The notes under the pieces are model-generated. The model worked only from the letters and a program-made list of their open reading frames with translations, searched no databases and was not told the DNA's origin. The position numbers were made by a program, and so were the translations under genes. This document shows, piece by piece, positions 13 through 30,977 of a stretch of 42,268 nucleotides of DNA. How positions within the stretch are numbered: the first letter of the stretch is position 1; each line of letters begins with the position of its first letter. The DNA is taken from assembly GCA_903929485.1 (NCBI GenBank), contig CAIYUY010000257.1:1-42268 (forward strand). Direction: 5' to 3'. This DNA comes from an uncultured Desulfuromonadales bacterium (GTDB lineage Bacteria > Desulfobacterota > Desulfuromonadia > Geobacterales > CAIOGM01).

Positions 13-103
13 GGCATAGCGTAAGACTCAGTGGAAGAGCGGAGGGCGCGGAAAACATCACCGCGTTTCTCGTGTCGCGCGGTTCGATCCCGGCCGCTAT
101 GCC
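13..103 (+). ncRNA. tRNA-like element 1, noncanonical
   Basis: The ends GGCATAGCG and CGCTATGCC form a perfect 9-bp acceptor-like stem. A D-arm-like segment (CTC/GAG stem, loop AGTGGAA) and a TTCGATC T-loop with only about 3 good T-stem pairs are present. The centre is a long hairpin (CGCGG/CCGCG, 9-nt loop) rather than a normal 7-nt anticodon loop, and no CCA follows directly. It lies opposite to the phage genes, just past the 3' end of the methyltransferase. It shares its layout with element 2 at 1003-1089. It may be a divergent phage tRNA, an allo-tRNA-like molecule, a decoy or a decayed tRNA; no amino-acid identity can be assigned. Confidence 0.5.
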
Positions 104-145: not shown

Positions 146-970
146 TTATTTCTCTTCAATCCTCTTGCAGGCAATCTCGAAATTACCGGGATCAAGCTCC
201 ATCCCGATAAACCGCCGTCCCGTCCGCAAACAAGCCACCCCCGTCGTCCCCGACCCGGAGAAAGGGTCAAGGACCGTTTCTCCTTCAACAACTATTTTAC
301 ACAGCGTCTCCATGATCCCCACCGGCTTCTGGGTGGAATGTTGCCGCTTTGCGTTGTACGGAGGACACTCCGACAAAACACCGGGGTGATAGGTTGCGCC
401 CTCTCGCGTGAAATCACGGGGCCCATTGCTGGCCCATGGGGCAAACTCACACTGTGCCCGAAACCGGTTAGGCATGGGGCGAGCGTTGATCTTGTCCCAG
501 GGTACGATTCCCCGCCATACCCACCCCGCAACCTGTAGCGCATCCGTTGCCGTGGGCAGCTGCCGCCAGTCGGAAAACGTTATGGCAACCCCGCCGGGTT
601 TCGTGACGTACAGAGCAAGACTTAACCACATCCGCGCCCACTCCAGATATGACCGTTGGTCCAAATTGTCGCCGGAAAAACTGGCATGCTCAGTAATAAG
701 TTTGCCGGAAGACTGGTATTTGCTCCGAGTTGACCCGGTTCTATCCCCGCGCATCATGCCGCCGGAACTATACGGCGGGTCAGTAATCACCGCATCAATA
801 GAACCTTTGGGCAGGGTCGGAATGATATCCAGACAATTCCCCCGATACATCACCGCCTGGCCTCCGGCTAATACTCGCTTTTCAAACACGTCGTCTCTCC
901 TGTCAAATGACCGCCCCTGGGAACGGGTAGGGCTATGAATGATGAATTTTTCACTTTTTTCAAGCGACAT
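146..970 (-). CDS. DNA methyltransferase, N4/N6 type
   Basis: A 274-aa SAM-dependent DNA methylase of the N-4 cytosine/N-6 adenine class. The catalytic motif DPPY lies near residue 65, after DAVIT. The SAM-binding motif DPFSGSGTTG is near the C-terminus, followed by RRFIGMELD. DPPY before FSGSG is the beta-type order. Mu-like phages often carry a DNA modification gene, typically against host restriction; here it sits between MuF and the missing head genes. The first ATG is used, although an internal Met near residue 41 is also possible because the methylase fold begins there. The target sequence cannot be read from the protein. Tightly flanked on both sides by tRNA-like elements on the other strand. 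Confidence 0.9.
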   Translation of the reverse strand: MSLEKSEKFIIHSPTRSQGRSFDRRDDVFEKRVLAGGQAVMYRGNCLDIIPTLPKGSIDAVITDPPYSSGGMMRGDRTGSTRSKYQSSGKLITEHASFSGDNLDQRSYLEWARMWLSLALYVTKPGGVAITFSDWRQLPTATDALQVAGWVWRGIVPWDKINARPMPNRFRAQCEFAPWASNGPRDFTREGATYHPGVLSECPPYNAKRQHSTQKPVGIMETLCKIVVEGETVLDPFSGSGTTGVACLRTGRRFIGMELDPGNFEIACKRIEEK

Positions 971-1002
971 TTTTAAACCTATATGATAGAATTAACTTGA
1001 TA

Positions 1003-1089
1003 GGAGCCGTATAAACTCAATGGTAGAGTGGAGTGCCGGGCTTTTCGGTTCGGCGGTCATGTTCCCGGTTCGATTCCGGGTGCGGTTCC
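1003..1089 (+). ncRNA. tRNA-like element 2, noncanonical
   Basis: The 9-nt ends GGAGCCGTA/TGCGGTTCC pair with two G-U wobbles. After TA comes a clean 4-bp D-arm (ACTC/GAGT, loop AATGGTA). A perfect 5-bp T-arm (CCCGG-TTCGATT-CCGGG) sits beside the acceptor strand. In the anticodon position, 1035-1054 forms a hairpin with a short UUUUCG loop, so there is no standard anticodon loop. No CCA is encoded. The 14 nt between T-loop and 3' end equal those in element 1 and exceed the 12 nt of a normal tRNA. The element overlaps the 3' end of the MuF gene on the opposite strand and begins 33 bp upstream of the methyltransferase start. Confidence 0.55.
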
Positions 1090-2520
1090 TTCTATTTTTC
1101 CCGTTAATACTTTATACCTTCCCCCATTAATCCCGCTGATATAATCCGAATCTGGAAGAATAGCCGCTGTTTTTATCTCATTGCTGACAAATCCTGTTTT
1201 TTTGTTTAGCACATTTACGCGTATGGCCCATTTCCCGGAGCTACCTTCTATGGGCACATCAAATATATACAGTAGCGACGGCTTGATGGTGTCATAAAGC
1301 ACTGCTGTGCTCTCCCTCAAGTGCTTGGGCAACTTCAGAGCCATATCCAAGGGAATAATTCGTTCCGCATCTCGACCTTTACCTGTAGCCAAATCCTTCA
1401 AGTGTAGCGAATGCAGAAACTCTTTATCTGTAATGGTGATCAGCGTCGTATCCAGGAGCACCGGATTTTTCAATTTAGCCAGTTTTACTTGCACTTCCGA
1501 ATCAATAAAACCGACGTTAAACTGTTCCCCTATGGTCTTTATCTCACCTGATTCCGTAGTGCCGGCCATCTTTGCCTTGGCCCACTGGGTAAATTCAGCG
1601 TCAATCTTTACGGCTGCTATCTCTTTGGAGAGCGGAGCGGATAGTACTGTAGGCAATGCTCCCACCCCCGCCAACTCCTTCCTCGCCGCCGGTCGAATTT
1701 CCGCCGGCATCGCCTTGACCTTCTCCCGGCCCAACTCCTGCAGCTTCGCCAGCCCCTTCCCCGGATTGGAGTTGAACCCAGGATCAGGCGCCATGTTCAC
1801 CTTCCGCCCCATCAGATCCGTGGTATTCACCCGCGTCACCGTCGTCCGGACGGGCGACCGCACCCCAACGGTCACCTCTTCACTGGTCAACGTCGCCGAC
1901 GGATTCTTCCCCACCGTGGAGCGCCGCGCCGCCGGTTCCGCCTGATCCTCCGCCAAGGCCCGCACCGTGCAGCGGCAGTTATACCCCTGGGGAGGATGGT
2001 GCGTCTCCCAGAAGGGATCATCAGCGTGAAAAATCAACCCGTTCAGCGCCGCGTGGGCCGGTCGCGTCCGCCGATCCATCACCGCCACATACTCCCACCA
2101 GGGGCGATTAGCCGCGTTCTCCCGATTCTGCTTGTAATCCCCCGCCATGTAGGCCGCTTGCAGATTCGTCTGATAGATCGTCTTTAAGCGCCGGGGAGAG
2201 CCCAACTGTACATCATGCAGCTCCCCCGTGGAGGGGTCCATGCTTTCCTTCCGTCCCCACCACCCCTTGGCCTGCAACGTCGGCTTCAACTCCTTCAAAA
2301 ACTCCCCAAACGGCTTCCCCTCACTCTGGGCCGCCACCAGCGCCCCATGAATATCCGCCAGGATATCGTTGCGCATGACCTTGGCCACGGTGAACTCCTT
2401 GGCGTGGGCCTCGTTCAGCATCTCCGTATAATCCCAGGTCAGGCGCGCCCCCTTGCTCACCAGGTAAGCAATCGCCTCCTCCGGTTTCAGCCCGAAGGCA
2501 TAGGTCAGGTCAACTTTCAC
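1057..2520 (-). CDS. Mu F-like head morphogenesis protein with PBECR-like C-terminal domain
   Basis: 487 aa, Mu gp30 (protein F) family, a minor head protein. The MuF core is visible at about residues 110-195, with TNLQAAYMAGDYKQ, RTRPAHAALNG and HPPQGYNCRC. After a linker, residues about 300-475 resemble the phage Barnase-EndoU-ColicinE5/D-RelE-like (PBECR) nuclease fold: ITDKEFLHSLHLKD, then a strand-rich end with KWAIRVNVLNKK and INGGRYKVL. MuF proteins with C-terminal toxin domains are known from other phages; nuclease activity here is inferred from resemblance. The start is a GTG supplied by a heptamer repeat. The last residues (GTAPGIEPGT) are encoded by the T-arm and acceptor of tRNA-like element 2, so the 3' end may have been altered. 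Confidence 0.85.
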   Translation of the reverse strand: MKVDLTYAFGLKPEEAIAYLVSKGARLTWDYTEMLNEAHAKEFTVAKVMRNDILADIHGALVAAQSEGKPFGEFLKELKPTLQAKGWWGRKESMDPSTGELHDVQLGSPRRLKTIYQTNLQAAYMAGDYKQNRENAANRPWWEYVAVMDRRTRPAHAALNGLIFHADDPFWETHHPPQGYNCRCTVRALAEDQAEPAARRSTVGKNPSATLTSEEVTVGVRSPVRTTVTRVNTTDLMGRKVNMAPDPGFNSNPGKGLAKLQELGREKVKAMPAEIRPAARKELAGVGALPTVLSAPLSKEIAAVKIDAEFTQWAKAKMAGTTESGEIKTIGEQFNVGFIDSEVQVKLAKLKNPVLLDTTLITITDKEFLHSLHLKDLATGKGRDAERIIPLDMALKLPKHLRESTAVLYDTIKPSLLYIFDVPIEGSSGKWAIRVNVLNKKTGFVSNEIKTAAILPDSDYISGINGGRYKVLTGKIEGTAPGIEPGT

Positions 2521-11644: not shown

Positions 11645-11739
11645 GTCCCTTCCTTCTTGGCTGCTCATCAGACCCGAAGCGCCACCCCCGGATGACGATC
11701 ATATTGCCGACGTCGGCAATGTGATCGTTTCACATGCCC

Positions 11740-22633: not shown

Positions 22634-25600
22634 TCAAAACCACCCATTCTCACTCCGCTGCCAGATGAAGTTATAGACCTTCCGAGCGGCCTGGCTTTTG
22701 TCGTCGGAGGTAAAGGGTGGATCGGGGAGGTTCCTGTGTAGTTCATCCAGGATGAAAACCTCAACCTCCGCCTGGGTCTGCTCCTTCCGGGTCCACTGCT
22801 CCAGCGGCGCCAGGAGCTCCTGCAAGGATTTCAGTAATCCCCGACTTCCGACTTTCAACCGTTCCCGGTCGCTCTTGCTCAGGTCGTCACGGTGCAGCAG
22901 GCAGAAGAGGGCATATTCCTCTTCGCTTAATCCCTCTTCGGCGGCCCGCCGTTGTTCCGCGTCGAGACTCGCGGCAAGGTCGGCCAGCCGGGAAAAAGTC
23001 TCCTCCATGCTCACCCGATCCTTTTCCCGGTTGTAATCCGCGATGATCTCCTGGTATCGCTTGTAGTAATCCATCCGCTGGGAATTCTGCCTCAACATCA
23101 GGACCAGCTTCCGCTCCACGATCTCCCGGATGTCCTGGATGGCGGTGGCCTTGCGTCGTATCTTCTTGGCAAACTCCTGTTGCAATTTTTCCAGATCAAG
23201 GGCGCTCAGGTCGTAGAGTTTGCTCTCAGTCGGTGGTTCGGCCACTGTAGAGTGGGCATTGATCGCCTCGTTGACGATCCGGTGCAGCTCCTTGAGGAGT
23301 TCCGCCACGTCAGCCGTATCGCGCCGCTCGGAGAGCTTCTTGTAGATCGCCTCGATGTTGTCATGGCGTTCGGCGTAGAGGTGAGCTGACGGCTCCATCA
23401 GCAGCCCCTTGAAGCGGATGAAGATCTGTCGGGCCATGATCTCGAAGCGCCTCTTGCTTTCGTCGGAGGTGTAGACCGCATCCACGGCATCGGCCAGCGC
23501 CTGGATACGGATAAAGCCCTTGCTGCCGATCATCTCTTCGGCATGAAAGCCGAGGCTGACCAGGTGCTGTTCCGTCGCCTCGATGGCCGCCAGCAGCGCC
23601 TTCACCACCCGCTCTTCCACCGGGGCGACGATCTCTTCTCCGCCGGCGCCGTCATCACCAAGGGCATACGTCGCCAGCGCCTCCCGCAGGCTCTTGAGCA
23701 TGCCATTGTAGTCGACGATGAGGCCGAAATCCTTGCCGGGGTAGCGCCGGTTGGCGCGGGCGATGGCCTGCATGAGGGTGTGTGCCTTCATCGGCTTGTC
23801 GATGTAGAGGGTTGAGAGGCACTCCACGTCGAAGCCGGTGAGCCACATGGCGCAGACGATGGCGACCCGGAAGGGGTGTTCCGGATTCTTGAAGGCCGAT
23901 TCCACGTCCACCCGCTTGCCGTCGGCGGTCTCGAACCCCTGCTTCATGATGGTCCGGTGGGGGATGATGTCGATCCCCCACTTCTTGAAGTCGGCCACCT
24001 CGTTCTGGGCCTCGCTGATAATGATCTCGATGATGGTGCTTTCCAGCCACGCCGCCTGTGCCGCGAGCTTGTTCCGCTCGTCCGTCAGCATTTTACGGGT
24101 TTCGTGGTCACAGGGGATTTCTAGAGCCGCCTCGCGGGCGAGGATTTCTTTCCTGATCGCCGCCAGCTTCGACTTCCACTTGGGCATGATGAGTTTATGC
24201 ATCCGGGCGCAGGTGACCTTGTCCACGCAGACCAGCATGGGCTTACCCGATTCCCAGCGGGTGGTGGCGTGTTCCACGAAATCGGCGGCGATCTTTGCCA
24301 GTCGGTCGTCGGCGGTGATCACCTCGTAATCCTTCCCCAGCAGTTTTTCCAGTAAGGCTTCCTGATCCGGGTCCAGCTCGACTCTGGCGATGGCGTCGGC
24401 GATCCGGTCATTCAGGTCCAGCCGGGCAATACCCAGCTTCTCCCCCCGGTTCTCATAGACCAGCTTCACCGTCGCGCCATCCTGCTCGGAACGTTTAAAG
24501 TCGTAGCAAGAGACGTAACTGCCGAAGATCCGCCGGGTCAGATTGTCGTTTTTAAAGAGCGGAGTGCCCGTAAAGCCGATGAAGGACGCGTTGGGAAGGG
24601 CCAGCCGCATGTTTCGCGCCAGCCTGCCTGCCTGGGTGCGGTGGGCTTCGTCGGAGATGACGACGATATCATCCCGGCGGCTGTACGGTTCTTCGTGGTT
24701 TATCTCCTGATTGAACTTGTGGATCAGGCTGAAGATGTAGCGATGGTTCTGCTTGAGAAGCTGCTCCAGCTCCTTGCCGGAACTTGCCCGAGGTGTCTGC
24801 TCGTTGACCACGCCGCAGCCGACAAAGGTTCGGTAAATTTGGCTATCCAGGTCATTGCGGTCAGTCATGAGGACGAAAGTAAAGTTCCCCGGCACCAGTC
24901 GCCGGACCTTTTCGGTGAAGAAGGCCATGGAGTAGGACTTGCCGCTCCCTTGGGTATGCCAGAAAACGCCCAGTCTCCCCAGGTCGGGATGGGCCGCTTC
25001 CGGCAGCATGAGGGTGCGCGGCTCTGCATTCAACTCTCCCATGCCCCGCGCCAACATTTCCTCCCCTTCACGCCTGTCCTGAGCGTGGTCCCCGAGCGGA
25101 GTCGAGGGGAAGTCGAAGGAGGGAGGGTCAGGGAGGGGATGGGGTTGTTCCTTGTCCGTCATCTGTTCGGGAGGGAGCTCGACCAGCCGATAGGTAACCC
25201 GCTGCTCCGGCGGGAACCGGAGTTTCAACTCTTCCTGGCGCACCACCGCTGCTACCGCGTTATTGACTCCCAGGACCTGATGGTTGCGGGCCACCACCTT
25301 GCGAATCGATCCCGGCTTGCCGGCATCGAACAGGATGAAGTTCTCGATGATATCCAGCAACCGTTCATGACCCAGCATCCCGTTGAGGAGCACCTCCGCC
25401 TCCACGCTTCCCGACTCCCGTTCCTCCAGTCGTTTCCACTGAGCGAAATGCTCCCAGGAGCTGGTGATGGAACCGTAGCGCGCCCGGTGACCGTTGCTGA
25501 CGATGAGGAAGGCGTTGTGATGGAAGGCATGGGCGATGACCTGCTCGTCCAGGTAATCCTTCAGGTTCCCCTCGAACCCGGCCCGGATATTTCGGTAGAC

Positions 25601-26128
25601 CGCTTTCAGTTCGATGAAAACCAGGGGGAGGCCGTTGACGAAACAGACCAGATCGGCCCGGCGGTTGTAGTGGGGACTCCGGAGCCCGGTGATCTTCAGC
25701 TCTCGCACCGCCTGGAAGCGGTTGTTGGGCACCCCGTTGGTGGAACCGTTGCTGAAGTCGATAACTTTCGCCTGGGCATGACGCAGGGTCCCGCTGGCCT
25801 CGCGGTAACTCACCGGGACACCGTCACGGATCATCTTGAAGAATGCTTGATTCTGTTGGATGAGGGACCGGGTGAAATCGTGGTGGGAAAGTTTGGTGAC
25901 CGCCTCATGGACAGCGGTGGGGGGAAGCTGGGGGTTCAGTTGCGCCACTGCCCGGCTTAGTTCGCGCTTGAGGACGACATCACGGGTATCGGTTCGCCCC
26001 AGCAGGCTGTCCGGGCCGAAGTCCTCCTGATTCCAGGCATAGACACTTTCCAATCCCAGCGCCTGCTCCAGGTGTTCGGCAAAGGTAGTTTGTACCAGCC
26101 GGTCTTCACTGTTGATGTCGGTGATCAT
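22634..26128 (-). CDS. hsdR: Type I restriction enzyme R subunit
   Basis: 1164 aa motor and nuclease subunit. N-terminal nuclease motif: D159 with E173-x-K175 (RADLVCF, FIELKA). Superfamily 2 helicase: Walker A TQGSGKS near residue 393, DEAH (VVISDEAH), motif III FTGTP, and later motif VI QAIARANRR. The C-terminal helical domain contacts the methylase. ATP-driven translocation is followed by cleavage of unmethylated DNA. Residues about 325-358 (FDFPSTPLGDHAQDRREGEE) come from repeat DNA and form a Pro/acid-rich insert before the motor. Last gene of the operon. Confidence 0.96.
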   Translation of the reverse strand: MITDINSEDRLVQTTFAEHLEQALGLESVYAWNQEDFGPDSLLGRTDTRDVVLKRELSRAVAQLNPQLPPTAVHEAVTKLSHHDFTRSLIQQNQAFFKMIRDGVPVSYREASGTLRHAQAKVIDFSNGSTNGVPNNRFQAVRELKITGLRSPHYNRRADLVCFVNGLPLVFIELKAVYRNIRAGFEGNLKDYLDEQVIAHAFHHNAFLIVSNGHRARYGSITSSWEHFAQWKRLEERESGSVEAEVLLNGMLGHERLLDIIENFILFDAGKPGSIRKVVARNHQVLGVNNAVAAVVRQEELKLRFPPEQRVTYRLVELPPEQMTDKEQPHPLPDPPSFDFPSTPLGDHAQDRREGEEMLARGMGELNAEPRTLMLPEAAHPDLGRLGVFWHTQGSGKSYSMAFFTEKVRRLVPGNFTFVLMTDRNDLDSQIYRTFVGCGVVNEQTPRASSGKELEQLLKQNHRYIFSLIHKFNQEINHEEPYSRRDDIVVISDEAHRTQAGRLARNMRLALPNASFIGFTGTPLFKNDNLTRRIFGSYVSCYDFKRSEQDGATVKLVYENRGEKLGIARLDLNDRIADAIARVELDPDQEALLEKLLGKDYEVITADDRLAKIAADFVEHATTRWESGKPMLVCVDKVTCARMHKLIMPKWKSKLAAIRKEILAREAALEIPCDHETRKMLTDERNKLAAQAAWLESTIIEIIISEAQNEVADFKKWGIDIIPHRTIMKQGFETADGKRVDVESAFKNPEHPFRVAIVCAMWLTGFDVECLSTLYIDKPMKAHTLMQAIARANRRYPGKDFGLIVDYNGMLKSLREALATYALGDDGAGGEEIVAPVEERVVKALLAAIEATEQHLVSLGFHAEEMIGSKGFIRIQALADAVDAVYTSDESKRRFEIMARQIFIRFKGLLMEPSAHLYAERHDNIEAIYKKLSERRDTADVAELLKELHRIVNEAINAHSTVAEPPTESKLYDLSALDLEKLQQEFAKKIRRKATAIQDIREIVERKLVLMLRQNSQRMDYYKRYQEIIADYNREKDRVSMEETFSRLADLAASLDAEQRRAAEEGLSEEEYALFCLLHRDDLSKSDRERLKVGSRGLLKSLQELLAPLEQWTRKEQTQAEVEVFILDELHRNLPDPPFTSDDKSQAARKVYNFIWQRSENGWF
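25074..25122. repeat. Composite CTGAGC..GTCGAAG repeat inside hsdR
   Basis: CCTGAGCGTGGTCCCCGAGC and GGAGTCGAGGGGAAGTCGAA, an extended variant of the family, translated in frame between nuclease and helicase domains. Confidence 0.75.
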
Positions 26129-26168
26129 GGTCGCCTTATTTGGGAAATGTTAGGGGAAATTCCGCGGC

Positions 26169-26921
26169 TCATATATGTTTGGTCCCTTTGCATTCCGGGT
26201 AACCGGAGCACCCCAGAAATTGCGCCCCTGCGTTTTTCCCCTGCTTTGCCGTGCGGAGCACCATGAGCTTGCCGCATAACGGGCAATTGGGAAAAGCTCC
26301 AGTGTCAGCCCGATCCGACCGATGATCACTTTTTCGCTCTTGCAGCCGTGCTGCCGCCAGTTGTTCGCTGTAGCCGCCTTCGTGGATGAAGTTCTGCTCA
26401 AGAGCTCGAATGAGCTGGTCGAGCAGGTAGTTTGTCTGGTGGATCAGGCAGATGAGCGTATTGGCGACGATGGCAGGGTCGGGGTTTTGCAGCCAGGCGG
26501 CGTAAGCGTCGCGATCGGTCTGATCGGGCTGATCAGAGTGATCTGACCGATCAGTTAGCCCCTTCCCCACACCCCTTACCGCTATTGCCTCGGGGGCGTC
26601 TTTGGCCCATTGTCGCTTGCCATGCTGCCGAATGTAGTCTTCGTAATCCAGCAGCAGTTCGTCCAGACTGGCGCGGGCGACATTGACCAGCCGCAGCTCG
26701 GTCTGGCTGGAGGTGGCCGAGGCCCGACTCCCCTCGGCGATATTCTGCCGTCCGCTCCGGGCGGCTTGCACCATCTGGTCAACCAGGCGTGAGTGCTTGT
26801 CTATGAACCGTTCGCAGAACGACACCGTGGCGTCATAGATCAGCGTTGAGGTTCGGAACGAGCGGAGCGTTCGATAGCCGCCGCTGGGGCGCAGCTTCTT
26901 GTAACCGGCGGGCTCACTCAT
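26169..26921 (-). CDS. Four-helix-bundle protein with C-terminal zinc ribbon
   Basis: 250 aa. The N-terminal part resembles the four-helix-bundle (23S rRNA intervening-sequence, S23) family: LVDQMVQAARSGRQNIAEGS and ARASLDELLLDYEDYI. The C-terminus is a topoisomerase-type zinc ribbon: CPLCGKLMVLRTAKQG ... FLGCSGYPECKGT. Proteins of this four-helix-bundle-suffix kind are found inside some type I restriction operons; their role is unknown. It overlaps hsdS by 4 bp (ATGA). The linker contains GATCAGACCGATC-type microrepeats (LTDRSDHSDQPDQTDRD). Confidence 0.82.
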   Translation of the reverse strand: MSEPAGYKKLRPSGGYRTLRSFRTSTLIYDATVSFCERFIDKHSRLVDQMVQAARSGRQNIAEGSRASATSSQTELRLVNVARASLDELLLDYEDYIRQHGKRQWAKDAPEAIAVRGVGKGLTDRSDHSDQPDQTDRDAYAAWLQNPDPAIVANTLICLIHQTNYLLDQLIRALEQNFIHEGGYSEQLAAARLQERKSDHRSDRADTGAFPNCPLCGKLMVLRTAKQGKNAGAQFLGCSGYPECKGTKHI

Positions 26922-28138
26922 ACGGCAATCTCCCCGCTCATCAGCTTCGGCAGCAGCAGGTCGCGGGCGGTGCGGAGTTTCTGGTTTTGCAACCGCAAAT
27001 TATGTGATTGTGCCATTTGCTGTTCCACAAATTCGTTGAAGGCTGAGACGAGAGGTTTTATCGGCACAGTTACGACAGCCCGTTCAAAATCGCCTGAGAC
27101 AACAGCCGGATAAGCTGCGCCCTTTGCGTGGTTTGACAGATAACCGACAAATGATTCTGTAGTTAGCGCTTGGTACAGGTAAGAAGTCGGTAGATATCGT
27201 GGAGTAATAACGGCAAATCCAGTTGACGCGACCAGGTTTTCTGGTGGGTTCCAAATTACGGCATGCGATCTCCGATTGGGCCGAACGCACGACCAGATAA
27301 TGTCTCCATGCTTGACGACACGGCGTGCTCTACTTGGGGCATCACGGAAAATATATATAGTCGTGTCATCAATTGAGCCCGGAGAAACAGAAGAAATATC
27401 AATATACTCAACATCTCCATCGTAACTGTTGCTGATATTGGTTTGGTTGATTTCGGCAACATCCCCCAGCTTCTTCCTTTCCCACCCCACCGGCACCCCG
27501 TCAACGATGCGGGTATGCTCATGGCCGGGGAAGCGGAGGCGAACGAACCACTCGTTGTACAGTTGCCGCGCCGTCTCCTCCAGCAGCACCATCCGTCGCC
27601 GGTTGTTTTCGATCAGGTCATCGTAGGCGGAGAGGGTGGAGGCGATTTTGTGCTGAGCCTTGATTGATGGAAAACGTACTGGTAATTTTGCGACAATACC
27701 AGCGCTGAGATTAAGCATTGTCGTTCCTACTGAGTTTTGGAGCAACCACTTTACAACATGGTCTTGTTCCATAAAATAGTAGAGATATTCTGGCGCAAGT
27801 TTTTTACCATCGAGCTCAATCTTGATACAGCCTGTTCCACAGATCCAACCTACTTGATCTTCCCTGATAAATGCTCTTTTTGTAATCTCTCCCCGACGCG
27901 GCAAAACAATTGTTCTTAATTTTATTTTGTGCCGCTCAAGCCGGTTCGCCATCTCCTCTGAAATATGTGCGATAGAATCGACTGATACTTGTCCATCAGC
28001 AATGTCTTTGGGCATAATTACTGGTATGCCTTCAGATTGATAATCAGCTTGATGGAGTTGTGCGCCAAATGGTCCGGTTTGAATTAACCCGCCATCTTGT
28101 TTAACTATTTCTCCAAGAGTTGAGTCCTGCCACTTCAT
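26918..28138 (-). CDS. hsdS: Type I restriction specificity subunit
   Basis: 406 aa with two target-recognition domains. The first (about 1-190) ends in the conserved LPVRFPSIKAQHKIASTL and helix AYDDLIENNRRRMVLLEETA. The second starts at GWERKKLGDVAEINQT and ends in a second helix EQQMAQSHNLRLQNQKLRTA then RDLLLPKLMSGEIAV, the classical C-terminal signature. It sets the bipartite DNA target for both methylation and cleavage. Overlaps genes on both sides by 4 bp. Confidence 0.95.
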   Translation of the reverse strand: MKWQDSTLGEIVKQDGGLIQTGPFGAQLHQADYQSEGIPVIMPKDIADGQVSVDSIAHISEEMANRLERHKIKLRTIVLPRRGEITKRAFIREDQVGWICGTGCIKIELDGKKLAPEYLYYFMEQDHVVKWLLQNSVGTTMLNLSAGIVAKLPVRFPSIKAQHKIASTLSAYDDLIENNRRRMVLLEETARQLYNEWFVRLRFPGHEHTRIVDGVPVGWERKKLGDVAEINQTNISNSYDGDVEYIDISSVSPGSIDDTTIYIFRDAPSRARRVVKHGDIIWSCVRPNRRSHAVIWNPPENLVASTGFAVITPRYLPTSYLYQALTTESFVGYLSNHAKGAAYPAVVSGDFERAVVTVPIKPLVSAFNEFVEQQMAQSHNLRLQNQKLRTARDLLLPKLMSGEIAV

Positions 28139-28482
28139 ACCTTCTCCTCAACATTCTCCTGAGTGCTATTTTTCCGTTCGCCCTGAGCTTGTCGAAGGGC
28201 ACATTTTGATTTCGCTAATCTGGAAACTTCTTCCCAGTCACCTCGCATCATTGCCTCTTTCTTTGCCCTGCTCCAGCTTTTTATCTGTTGTTCCGCAGCG
28301 AGCGCTTCTAATCTGGTATGAAATACCTCACAGTACACAAGCTGAACCGGGAGCCGTTTGTGCGTGTAGCAGGTAGCTATTGCTCCGCTGTGATGCTCCG
28401 CCAGACGTTTTTCGAGATTGTCAGTATGCCCGGTATAATAGCTCTTATCGGAACACCTGAGAATGTATACGTAAAAGTCCAT
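28135..28482 (-). CDS. GIY-YIG nuclease-fold protein
   Basis: 115 aa, URI-type GIY-YIG family: FYVYILRCSDKSYYTGHTDN, then LEKRLAEHHSGAIATCYT, with the basic VQLVYCEVFHTRLEALAAEQ following. Stand-alone members are common and often of unknown role; some act on damaged DNA. The C-terminus (ALRQAQGERKNS) is translated from a CTGAGC..GTCGAAG repeat, so the natural end may be shorter. It overlaps hsdS by 4 bp and so is transcribed with the restriction operon, perhaps as a late insertion. Confidence 0.85.
   Translation of the reverse strand: MDFYVYILRCSDKSYYTGHTDNLEKRLAEHHSGAIATCYTHKRLPVQLVYCEVFHTRLEALAAEQQIKSWSRAKKEAMMRGDWEEVSRLAKSKCALRQAQGERKNSTQENVEEKV
28179..28201. repeat. GCCCTGAGCTTGTCGAAGGGC element
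   Basis: Classic CTGAGC..GTCGAAG hairpin inside the 3' end of the GIY-YIG gene. Confidence 0.85.
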
Positions 28483-28790
28483 ATTGATCTAACCTTGCGG
28501 ATTTATTTGCCCTTCGACAAGCTCAGGGCGAACGGATGTGGGATTTGCAACGAATACATTTTCCGTTCATGGTGAGTTCTTCGACATGCCTGTTTTGAGC
28601 ATAGTCGAAGGGCTTAGGGCGAACGGAGCTAGGTGATTCGCTACCGCAATATAGTCGGCGTTAGTGTTCCGCTCATGGTTCGACAGGCTCACCACGAACG
28701 GAACACAAGCCAATTAATAGCCTGAATCCGTTCACCCTGAGCTTGTCGAAGGGTGCAATTTTACTATGCGGATTTAAGATGATGACGAGT
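28483..28790. repeat. Non-coding gap filled with CTGAGC..GTCGAAG hairpin repeats
   Basis: Copies near 28510-28535, 28590-28625, 28676-28700 and 28732-28755, often with CGAACGG on one side, separate hsdM from the GIY-YIG gene. No ORF or promoter supported. Confidence 0.8.
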
Positions 28791-30956
28791 TCATACCCCC
28801 AACTCCTCGAAATTCTCCTGAATCTTCGCCGCCAGTTCCACCGCTTCCCGGTTGAGGTCAGCCAACTCCAGATGAATGTCCTTGAGGGTCTGCTCGAAGT
28901 CGAAATCATCATCGACCTCTGCCGGGGCGACACCGACGTAACGGCCCGGCGTCAGACTCCAATCGGCGGCCTTTATCTCGGCGCGGGTTACTACCTTGCA
29001 GAGTCCCGGCACGGCCCGCATTTCGGCCTCGGGGAATCGATCTTGTAACCATCCTATCTGCCGGTGGTAGTAGACTGCCTGCTTTAACTGCTCCACCGCC
29101 TGCTTCCGCTCTTCGTCCAGTTGCTTCAGCAGTTTGTTTATGGCCCGGCGGTCGTAAGATTTGCCGGTGTCATCGAGGGCCAGTTCCTGAGCCACCTGTC
29201 CTGAACGGGCCGCCAGCTTGTAGAGGAGGTCTACCTGTTTGATCAACCCCTTCATCCGATCCGCCAGATAGTCGAAAGCCTGCCGTGCTTCATGCTGGGC
29301 GGTGTTGTCTACGGGAAGGTTCGCGCAATGGGTGGAGAGATAGACGTTCAGGTCGGTCAGCAGTCCGGTCCGGTCACTGTCGTAGGCCGTCGCGGCTTCG
29401 CCAAGCTCCGTCAGTGCGTCGGTAAGCGGTTGGCGTTGTGCCGTGGTGATTGCTTTGACCGTCGCCACTGCGCCGGAAAATTCGGTTAATTGCTTCCTGA
29501 TGTCGCCAAGTGTGGCGTCAAAGATGGAGAGTTCTCCCGTGACCGCGTCGACTTCATGGCAGAGGGAGGTGAAGTAATTCTTGATCAGACAAAGAAAACG
29601 CTCCCGCTCTCCCCGGTGTAGCCAGACGATGGCGGTGAGGTTTGCCAGTTGCTCGGGACTGAAGTCGTAGATTTTCCGGGTGACTTTTCGGTAGATGTTC
29701 CGGGCATCCAGCATGAGGACAGTATCAGCTCCTCGCTGCGGGACATCCCCCCCACCCCGACCCTCCCCCGCCATGGGGGAGGGAGCTAACTGTTTCCCTT
29801 TATCAAAAAACCAGAGCTCGCAGGGGACGGTGCGGGTGTAGAAGAAGTTGGAGCGGATGGCGATCATGGCATCCACATCTCCGGTTTCGACGATCTTGCG
29901 CCGGACCTCGGCTTCACCATGCCCCGCGCTGGAGGCCTGGGACGACATGACGAACCCGGCCCTTCCAGTCTTGTTCAGATAGCTGTGGAAGTAGGAGATC
30001 CAGAGGTAGTTTCCGTTGCTGACTTTCTTGTTCTTGTTCACTCCCGGCAGACCGAAGGGGAGGCGGCGGTCGTCCTTGATCCGCTCTGCATCCACCATGT
30101 CCACGTTGAAGGGAGGATTGGCCATGACGAAGTCGCACTCTCCCCAGATGGGATGGAGATCTTCATAGAAGGTGTTGGCCTCGCGGATGTCTCCTTCCAG
30201 CCCATGCACCGCCAGGTTCATCTTGGCCAGACGGATGGTGGTGCCGGTCTTTTCCTGACCATAGAAGGTGACCCGTTTCATGGTGTCAAGCCCTTCCTGC
30301 TCGATGAAGTGACTGGACTGCACGAACATACCGGCGGAGCCGGAGGCCGGGTCGAGGATGATGCCGTGATCCGGTTCGATGACATTGACGATGGTCTGGA
30401 CGAGGGAAGGAGGGGTGAAGAATTCGCCGTTATCCTGGGCACCCTGCATGGCGAATTTCATCAGGAAATATTCGTAGATCCGACCGAAGATGTCGCCACG
30501 GGCATTCCGGAGCGCCTCGCTGTCGAAAGCCCGGAGCAGGTCCTCCAGCAGCTTGTCGTCGAATTTGTCGTACTCCTTGGGAAGCTGCCCCCGGAGCGGC
30601 TCGAAGTCATCTTCGATGGCGTTCATCGCCTCCACCAGGGCCGTGCCCAGACTCTGGCCGGTGGGGAGTTGCAGCAGATAGCCGTACCGGGCCTTCTCGG
30701 GGAGCATGAGCGCCCGACGTTTGATGAAATCACCCTTCACCAACGGTCGGTCGGGCATCTTTCCGGCGGCCTGATCCGACTTGATCTGGGCGAGGGCGAT
30801 TTCGTGGCGGTTGCCGGCGTGACGCAAAAAAATGACCCCCAGCACCGGCATGCAGTATTCGCTGGAGGTCAGTTTTGAATTGGCGCGGAGTTGATCGGCG
30901 GCTTCCCAGAGGCTGGATTCAAACTGCTCGATACTGTTAAGGTGGTTGACGGTCAT
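28791..30956 (-). CDS. hsdM: Type I restriction modification methylase
   Basis: About 721 aa from the ATG at 30954-30956; an ATG seven codons earlier (30977) is possible. N6-adenine methylase with SAM motif DPASGSAGMF near residue 202 and catalytic NPPF near 280. The N-terminal HsdM helical domain (HLNSIEQFESSLWEAADQLR) precedes it. It is longer than the usual 500-aa HsdM because of a helical C-terminal region of about 250 residues, related to the long HsdM subfamily. A repeat-derived insert (APSPMAGEGRGGGD) lies in the middle after WFFDKGK. First gene of the operon. Confidence 0.95.
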   Translation of the reverse strand: MTVNHLNSIEQFESSLWEAADQLRANSKLTSSEYCMPVLGVIFLRHAGNRHEIALAQIKSDQAAGKMPDRPLVKGDFIKRRALMLPEKARYGYLLQLPTGQSLGTALVEAMNAIEDDFEPLRGQLPKEYDKFDDKLLEDLLRAFDSEALRNARGDIFGRIYEYFLMKFAMQGAQDNGEFFTPPSLVQTIVNVIEPDHGIILDPASGSAGMFVQSSHFIEQEGLDTMKRVTFYGQEKTGTTIRLAKMNLAVHGLEGDIREANTFYEDLHPIWGECDFVMANPPFNVDMVDAERIKDDRRLPFGLPGVNKNKKVSNGNYLWISYFHSYLNKTGRAGFVMSSQASSAGHGEAEVRRKIVETGDVDAMIAIRSNFFYTRTVPCELWFFDKGKQLAPSPMAGEGRGGGDVPQRGADTVLMLDARNIYRKVTRKIYDFSPEQLANLTAIVWLHRGERERFLCLIKNYFTSLCHEVDAVTGELSIFDATLGDIRKQLTEFSGAVATVKAITTAQRQPLTDALTELGEAATAYDSDRTGLLTDLNVYLSTHCANLPVDNTAQHEARQAFDYLADRMKGLIKQVDLLYKLAARSGQVAQELALDDTGKSYDRRAINKLLKQLDEERKQAVEQLKQAVYYHRQIGWLQDRFPEAEMRAVPGLCKVVTRAEIKAADWSLTPGRYVGVAPAEVDDDFDFEQTLKDIHLELADLNREAVELAAKIQENFEELGV
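29735..29795. repeat. CCCTCCCCCATGGGGGAGGG hairpin insert in hsdM
   Basis: Repeat material of the 'GEGRGGG' kind translated in frame within hsdM. Confidence 0.7.
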
Positions 30957-30977
30957 GAGCAGCAGAGTCCTTTTCAT

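Follow-up and report, generated by a model that had tools for sequence, protein, structure and literature searches.

A tRNA-like RNA at the 3' end of muF in a Mu-like prophage as a candidate antidote to the predicted RNase domain of MuF

The window analysed here is an entire contig of 42,268 nt (CAIYUY010000257.1; G000:C257) from an uncultured Desulfuromonadales bacterium. It carries a Mu-like prophage, whose Mu transposase lies further in. On the minus strand the terminase and portal genes are upstream of muF, in the order terminase, portal, MuF. The muF gene encodes a protein of 487 aa, which is assigned to PHROG 220 (minor head protein and DNA pilot) and carries a Phage_Mu_F domain at residues 56-185 (E 1.5e-26). 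This report concerns the toxin-like C-terminal domain of MuF and a tRNA-like RNA, RNA B, encoded on the opposite strand at the 3' end of the gene. The features at the locus are as follows.

1057..2520, minus strand: muF, open reading frame (ORF) of 487 aa, minor head protein with C-terminal toxin-like domain
1060..1665, minus strand: MuF_C/PBECR-like domain, residues 286-487, predicted RNase (from MuF_C matches of relatives and an AlphaFold2 model)
1411..1413, minus strand: codon of His370, predicted catalytic His in the motif TDKEFLH, near-invariant in alignment A4 (His85 of the fragment)
1003..1089, plus strand: tRNA-like cloverleaf RNA B (from ARAGORN, folding and covariation in alignment A7)
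964..992, plus strand: sigma70-like promoter of RNA B, with -35 GCGACA (964-969), a 17 nt spacer and -10 TAGAAT (987-992)
146..970, minus strand: gene for an N6/N4 DNA methylase (PF01555, E 1.7e-27), an insertion between muF and gpG

No small immunity protein gene lies directly downstream of muF. The next gene on the same strand is the DNA methylase at 146-970, and the muF–methylase junction is occupied by the antisense RNA.

The C-terminal domain of MuF and the RNA beside it

The initial annotation of the gene as a MuF head protein with a PBECR-like C-terminus was borne out. In addition to the Phage_Mu_F match, MuF_C (PF18819) was matched by 22 of the 24 aligned relatives of the domain (E <= 1; best 1.3e-7). 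The window's own C-terminal domain had no Pfam match when used alone, and was placed through these relatives. MuF_C has been placed among PBECR RNase-like domains, and the active site of PBECR RNases combines a His in a helix with a Ser or Thr in strand 4 of the meander (Iyer 2017, PMC5512222). An AlphaFold2 model of the domain (predicted local distance difference test 78.3; predicted template modelling score 0.76) has His370 (His85 of the fragment) in the helix 80-86 and Thr451 (Thr166) in strand 4 of the meander (163-170); Thr166, like His85, is an aligned position. The equivalent of His370 is missing in Mu, D108 and PM105-type relatives. The domain of Mu gp30 has been called inactive, its orthologs being predicted RNases (Iyer 2017, PMC5512222). 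The domain of the window is predicted to be a metal-independent RNase. Earlier papers already describe the domain, its setting in phages and its probable identity as an RNase (PMC5576092, PMC5512222).

The domain is modular: the copy in genome G001 is 62% identical while the MuF part is only 29% identical, and in G033 the domain is encoded as a separate chromosomal gene. Foldseek with the domain model gave no match at E <= 0.001, and the VIA structure rows were weak (Z <= 4.1), the top ones being mostly RelE/HigB, CdiA-type and sequence-specific RNase toxins with unrelated rows interspersed. The domain profile gave 0 matches against PDB sequences. As sole query, the window domain had no match in viral contigs or phage records; relatives there were reached with other family members as queries. 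A merely structural phage fold is not favoured, given the MuF_C/PBECR matches, the model with His in a helix and Thr in strand 4, and the toxin RNases among the weak structural rows.

RNA B was reported by ARAGORN as 'tRNA-???' at 1013-1089, the anticodon not being assigned. Its terminal stem has 9 bp, as has the middle arm, which carries a loop of 4 nt; the other two arms are D-like and T-like, the latter being perfectly paired (CCCGG-TTCGATT-CCGGG). Folded alone it forms a cloverleaf of -39.9 kcal/mol (z -4.46), and one of 200 shuffles was as stable. Its first base lies 10 nt after the end of the -10 and 33 nt after the end of the -35, and an RNA is expected to be made from 1003-1089. The tRNA-like element on the other strand was thus correctly recognized in the initial annotation, but its overlap with muF, put there at the last 13 codons, a figure reached only by counting in a few flanking bases, covers 10 codons and the stop codon (the 3' 33 nt of the RNA). 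An ordinary decoding phage tRNA was ruled out: the anticodon is unassigned, the loop is of 4 nt rather than 7 nt, and no CCA follows the stem. Membership of a known RNA family was also ruled out, there being no Rfam match at gathering score for the window RNAs or for 13 related loci. Full-text searches of open-access PubMed Central gave no description of an RNA partner of MuF toxins.

Recurrence of the RNA and its joint absence with the histidine

A profile of the domain matched 9 of 277 genomes of the host's class. Leaving aside a short fragment (G002) and a weak match with stops (G105), seven usable genes were obtained, one of them stand-alone and chromosomal; a structured RNA lies antisense at the 3' end of every one. 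The RNA is of the window type in five (the window, G001, G102, G033 and G077) and of another family in G092 and G019. The stand-alone domain gene with its RNA lies on the chromosome of G033, and a remnant of such a gene in G077. A Rhodocyclaceae phage likewise has an RNA at the 3' end of the domain. In the class to which the organism of that phage belongs, the domain was found in 8 of 369 genomes, at nine places. The RNA was present at all five His-bearing intact genes with readable flank, of which G425 is the weakest and doubtful, and at neither of two His-less places; of the others, one is a broken frame with an RNA remnant and one runs off the contig. Among Pasteurella-type prophages the RNA was present in 34 of 34, always antisense at the 3' end, and Pseudomonas phage B3 and Pasteurella phage AFS-2018a also carry it. 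A covariance model built from the Pasteurella-type RNAs, with the Rhodocyclaceae RNA not included (R1), independently recognized the latter (28.8 bits, E 2e-4). R1 does not find RNA B of the window, and its match at window positions 25308-25379 (17.7 bits, E 0.14) was taken as chance.

The arrangement is therefore not unique to one strain and exceeds chance, since the adjacency of RNA and toxin recurs in distant relatives. The overlap to which the initial annotation had drawn attention is itself not conserved; the conserved feature is adjacency, the RNA of most relatives ending some 10 nt or less from the stop codon. In two of the 34 Pasteurella-type prophages (L221 and L222) the usual RNA has given way to a longer tRNA-like variant, with the T-arm GTGGG-TTCGAGT-CCCAC, while position and promoter are unchanged, which makes the RNA look like a cassette that can be replaced. 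The RNA is present twice in tandem in L236, the only tandem case. In phage B3 an annotated hypothetical gene, ORF34 (L179 3005-3103), overlies the antisense RNA and is unlikely to be a real gene.

The flanks of MuF genes were also scanned with a blind detector, which requires a promoter and then an 8-bp closing stem (score cut-off 14 or more). It was positive in 31 of 37 loci that retain the His, 28 of these detections being rightly placed and three (L214, L228 and L236) lying elsewhere, and in none of 12 loci that lack it. Seven MuF genes without MuF_C were used (L003, L018, L020, L022, L031, L190 and L004, of which L004 and L190 have other C-terminal domains), and gave a single, wrongly placed detection; 201 of 2240 random windows were positive. 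Six His-bearing loci were missed by the detector: L012 was confirmed by covariance model, and L193, L005 and L007 show the element by eye. The 3' end of the RNA falls -13 to +9 nt from the muF stop in 27 of the 28 rightly placed detections, the window being the exception at -34. No RNA was found in the His-less relatives at the 12 loci. Mu, D108, PM105, JBD67, CF78a, phiSHP3, Bhz63 and a Klebsiella phage, which are without the His, have no room between F and G. His and RNA are jointly absent.

On the tree, the rows lacking both His and RNA are scattered, with five changes of state, at least four of them forced by well-supported branches. Two sister pairs, B3/PM105 and G519/Mu, are split in RNA and His state. 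The window-type RNA maps to one clade of four, with one change in 93% of bootstrap trees, the fine RNA classes on the tree having been set by eye.

Selection acts on the fold of the RNA. In the alignment of eight window-type RNAs (A7), 94.3% of cells are paired and in 10 of 18 pairs both partners have changed; none of 500 shuffles reached this level, and slid controls were far lower. The corresponding figures for 14 Pasteurella-type RNAs (A6) are 94.2% and 10 of 22 pairs, again with 0 of 500 shuffles as high. The D- and T-arms are nearly invariant and contribute little to this result, and the terminal stems are preserved through compensatory changes. A promoter penalty of 3 or less was obtained before 20 of 31 RNAs, as compared with 1.0% of random sites. 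Distances between RNAs correlate with those between toxin domains at 0.84, against 0.72 for the N-terminal part of MuF (partial correlation 0.63; 0 of 2000 permutations), a correlation that may be raised by physical closeness alone.

RNAs away from the toxin domain and other features of the contig

Related RNAs were also seen apart from the domain. One of them, absent from the initial annotation, lies in the window:

13..103, plus strand: tRNA-like element A, between the methylase gene and, judging by the C17 copy, gpG; its core is present four times in the genome

The core of element A is identical at all four places in genome G000 (contigs C17, C30, C101 and C257; L036, L041, L043 and window 13-103). 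The copies adjoin gpG and/or methylase cassettes, and when C101 is compared with the window the similarity stops right at the promoter of RNA B. Folded alone, element A is no better than shuffles (z -0.59). Another such RNA, element E, directly follows a CRISPR array in two genomes, G077 (L033 711-792) and G081 (L039 ~451-530, where the array was recognized by eye), and has a strong promoter with a TTGACA -35. In G081 no toxin domain was found in the vicinity of element E.

In a Mu-like viral contig, the early region has a tRNA-like RNA (L165 1283-1366, minus strand) with a GemA-like gene nearby, as judged by eye, and no MuF domain in the L165 stretch. Nearly all of the listed matches of a pattern scan of viral contigs were ordinary tRNAs by length or context; among the listed matches that passed a stricter filter, L165 is the only family member by eye. 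Across 369 genomes, R1 found one place, in G528 (L246 1501-1580, minus strand; 47 bits), where a Pasteurella-type RNA lies on the chromosome, antisense, just after umuC, with no MuF gene. Such RNAs could represent orphan immunity or immunity to rival phages. Orphan immunity is known for protein immunity genes.

Elsewhere on the contig there is a Type II hammerhead ribozyme (11655-11735, minus strand; Rfam RF02276, 50.9 bits). Type I restriction-modification genes are present at 22634-30977, with HsdR at 22634-26128 and HsdM at 28791-30977.

A candidate toxin–antidote pair and its alternatives

We consider it likely that the locus is a toxin–antidote pair, in which a predicted MuF_C/PBECR RNase is matched by an antisense-encoded, tRNA-like RNA antidote that provides immunity. 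The toxin would be the C-terminal domain of MuF, presumably a virion component that enters the cell along with the DNA. The antidote would be the cloverleaf RNA of ~90 nt, transcribed on the opposite strand from a sigma70-like promoter of its own and ending at the muF stop codon. Made by a resident prophage, or by a newly arrived phage genome once transcribed, the RNA would inhibit the domain by binding to it. It could thereby guard the cell both against toxin made late in the lytic cycle and against toxin injected by a related phage, and lysogens would be immune while non-lysogens would not. The RNA is probably the antidote because it is kept with active-looking toxins and absent with dead-looking ones. 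Of the roles of substrate, decoy or immunity offered in the initial annotation, immunity or antidote fits best, and the link between toxin and RNA, put forward there as speculation, is supported.

Inhibition is probably by direct binding, which we prefer to an antisense mechanism because the RNA barely overlaps the coding part of muF and lies more than 1.3 kb from its start. The tRNA-like body, with terminal stem, T-loop and D-arm, suggests that the toxin may recognize tRNA and that the RNA may be a mimic of it. As this body is without an anticodon loop, the RNA may be a mimic that cannot be cut, the middle arm being non-cleavable.

The proposed pair resembles several known systems. MuF polymorphic toxins also join a MuF N-part to a variable toxin-like C-part, occur in prophages and are thought to be delivered with DNA (Jamet 2017, PMC5576092); the window is like them in that a modular toxin-like domain forms the C-terminus of a (pro)phage MuF protein. 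In 89.4% of 191 genes the immunity factor presumed for them is a small protein encoded by a downstream ORF (PMC5576092), whereas here an opposite-strand structured RNA is found in its place. The domain is that described as MuF_C/PBECR (Iyer 2017, PMC5512222; PF18819); section 19 of that paper mentions no RNA partner, whereas here an RNA follows the split between active and inactive domains. In type III toxin–antitoxin systems such as ToxIN an RNase toxin is likewise held by a noncoding RNA (PMC8860590, PMC5772629). However, ToxI is a co-transcribed pseudoknot in repeats, while the RNA here is an opposite-strand cloverleaf, mostly single copy, with its own promoter, and the toxin here is fused to a virion protein. 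Because the type III layout (strand, repeats, co-transcription) is not seen, we class the locus as a MuF toxin with an RNA replacing the immunity protein. The type I layout, with an antisense RNA over the toxin start or ribosome-binding region, is absent, the RNA being at the 3' end and more than 1.3 kb from the start. Colicin D/E5, CdiA-CT and RelE/HigB, RNase toxins of the BECR fold, resemble the domain in the predicted His plus Ser/Thr active-site layout and possibly in fold. Their known antidotes are proteins, while here the candidate is an RNA.

An antisense regulator of the type I kind, pairing with the late mRNA and lowering MuF or gpG output, would also account for an RNA that lies opposite the muF-gpG junction and is perfectly complementary to the late transcript, with its promoter over the gpG start in several loci. 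We regard this as unlikely: the overlap is limited to the last codons of muF or is nil, at a great distance from the muF start; substitutions leave the cloverleaf and T-loop intact; the stand-alone domain of G033 has no gpG; and such a route would give no protection against injected toxin. The co-occurrence data would also be explained if the RNA were a natural substrate of the domain, or a cofactor or packaging partner that holds it inactive during head assembly and is perhaps loaded into the virion, and an RNA-binding role has been suggested for the inactive domain of Mu (Iyer 2017, PMC5512222). However, the Mu-type domains, which would be the ones that only bind RNA, have no RNA gene, and the separate promoter and the orphan copies suggest action outside assembly; we give this explanation the same low probability as antisense regulation.

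Copies beside a methylase gene (element A), umuC (G528) and CRISPR arrays (element E), together with the tandem in L236, might instead indicate a tRNA-derived mobile or repeated element that settles after stop codons and has no functional relation to the toxin. This is less probable still, since presence of the RNA tracks the His and its absence tracks loss of the His in separate lineages, all 34 of the diverged prophages have the RNA in antisense orientation at the 3' end, and several different RNA families occupy the same place. It is hardly credible that the domain serves only in the structure of the head and that the RNA is a decayed tRNA or a small RNA with no connection to it. Mu and its relatives do live with a His-less domain, and PHROG 220 is a head protein family; but stand-alone domain genes with an RNA occur on chromosomes (G033, and the remnant in G077), the domain is swapped between MuF proteins, and the RNA has undergone compensatory changes.

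Several observations weigh against the toxin–antidote interpretation. The toxin-less umuC place found by R1 in G528 counts against strict pairing, and the RNAs without a toxin (the four copies of A, E in G081, L165 and G528) need an extra assumption; they could also mean that the RNA has another role. The RNA families differ much between toxin groups, and one shared mechanism is assumed for them. Family-2 and 'other' RNAs are mostly without a T-loop and were judged partly by eye; the stem of the family-2 RNA of L173 was placed in the wrong register (2 of 9 pairs), which makes the family-2 figure conservative. Many of the 37 His-bearing loci are closely related, so that the detector counts are not independent samples, and the RNA is doubtful in two of the loci that the detector missed (L194 and L186). 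The fold search was weak, with no Foldseek match at the threshold and a best Z of 4.1.

A wider generalization seems to us slightly favoured, with less assurance than the toxin–antidote pair at this locus. Active MuF_C domains of Mu-like phages would generally be accompanied by a dedicated cloverleaf RNA antidote; the orphan RNAs in chromosomes and after CRISPR arrays would provide immunity on the side of the host or against rival phages; and Mu itself would have disarmed its toxin and dropped the antidote. The purpose of the RNase-like end of head protein F in the Mu family, and how its owner survives it, would have a possible answer. The immunity factor of a phage-carried polymorphic toxin would be an RNA, in a role that proteins fill in MuF systems (PMC5576092). 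If tRNA-like RNA inhibitors do neutralize these RNases, they would also hint at the target of the toxin. If the generalization is true, immunity based on RNA would be widespread against toxins that virions deliver, with a mimic of tRNA blocking an enzyme that cuts tRNA.
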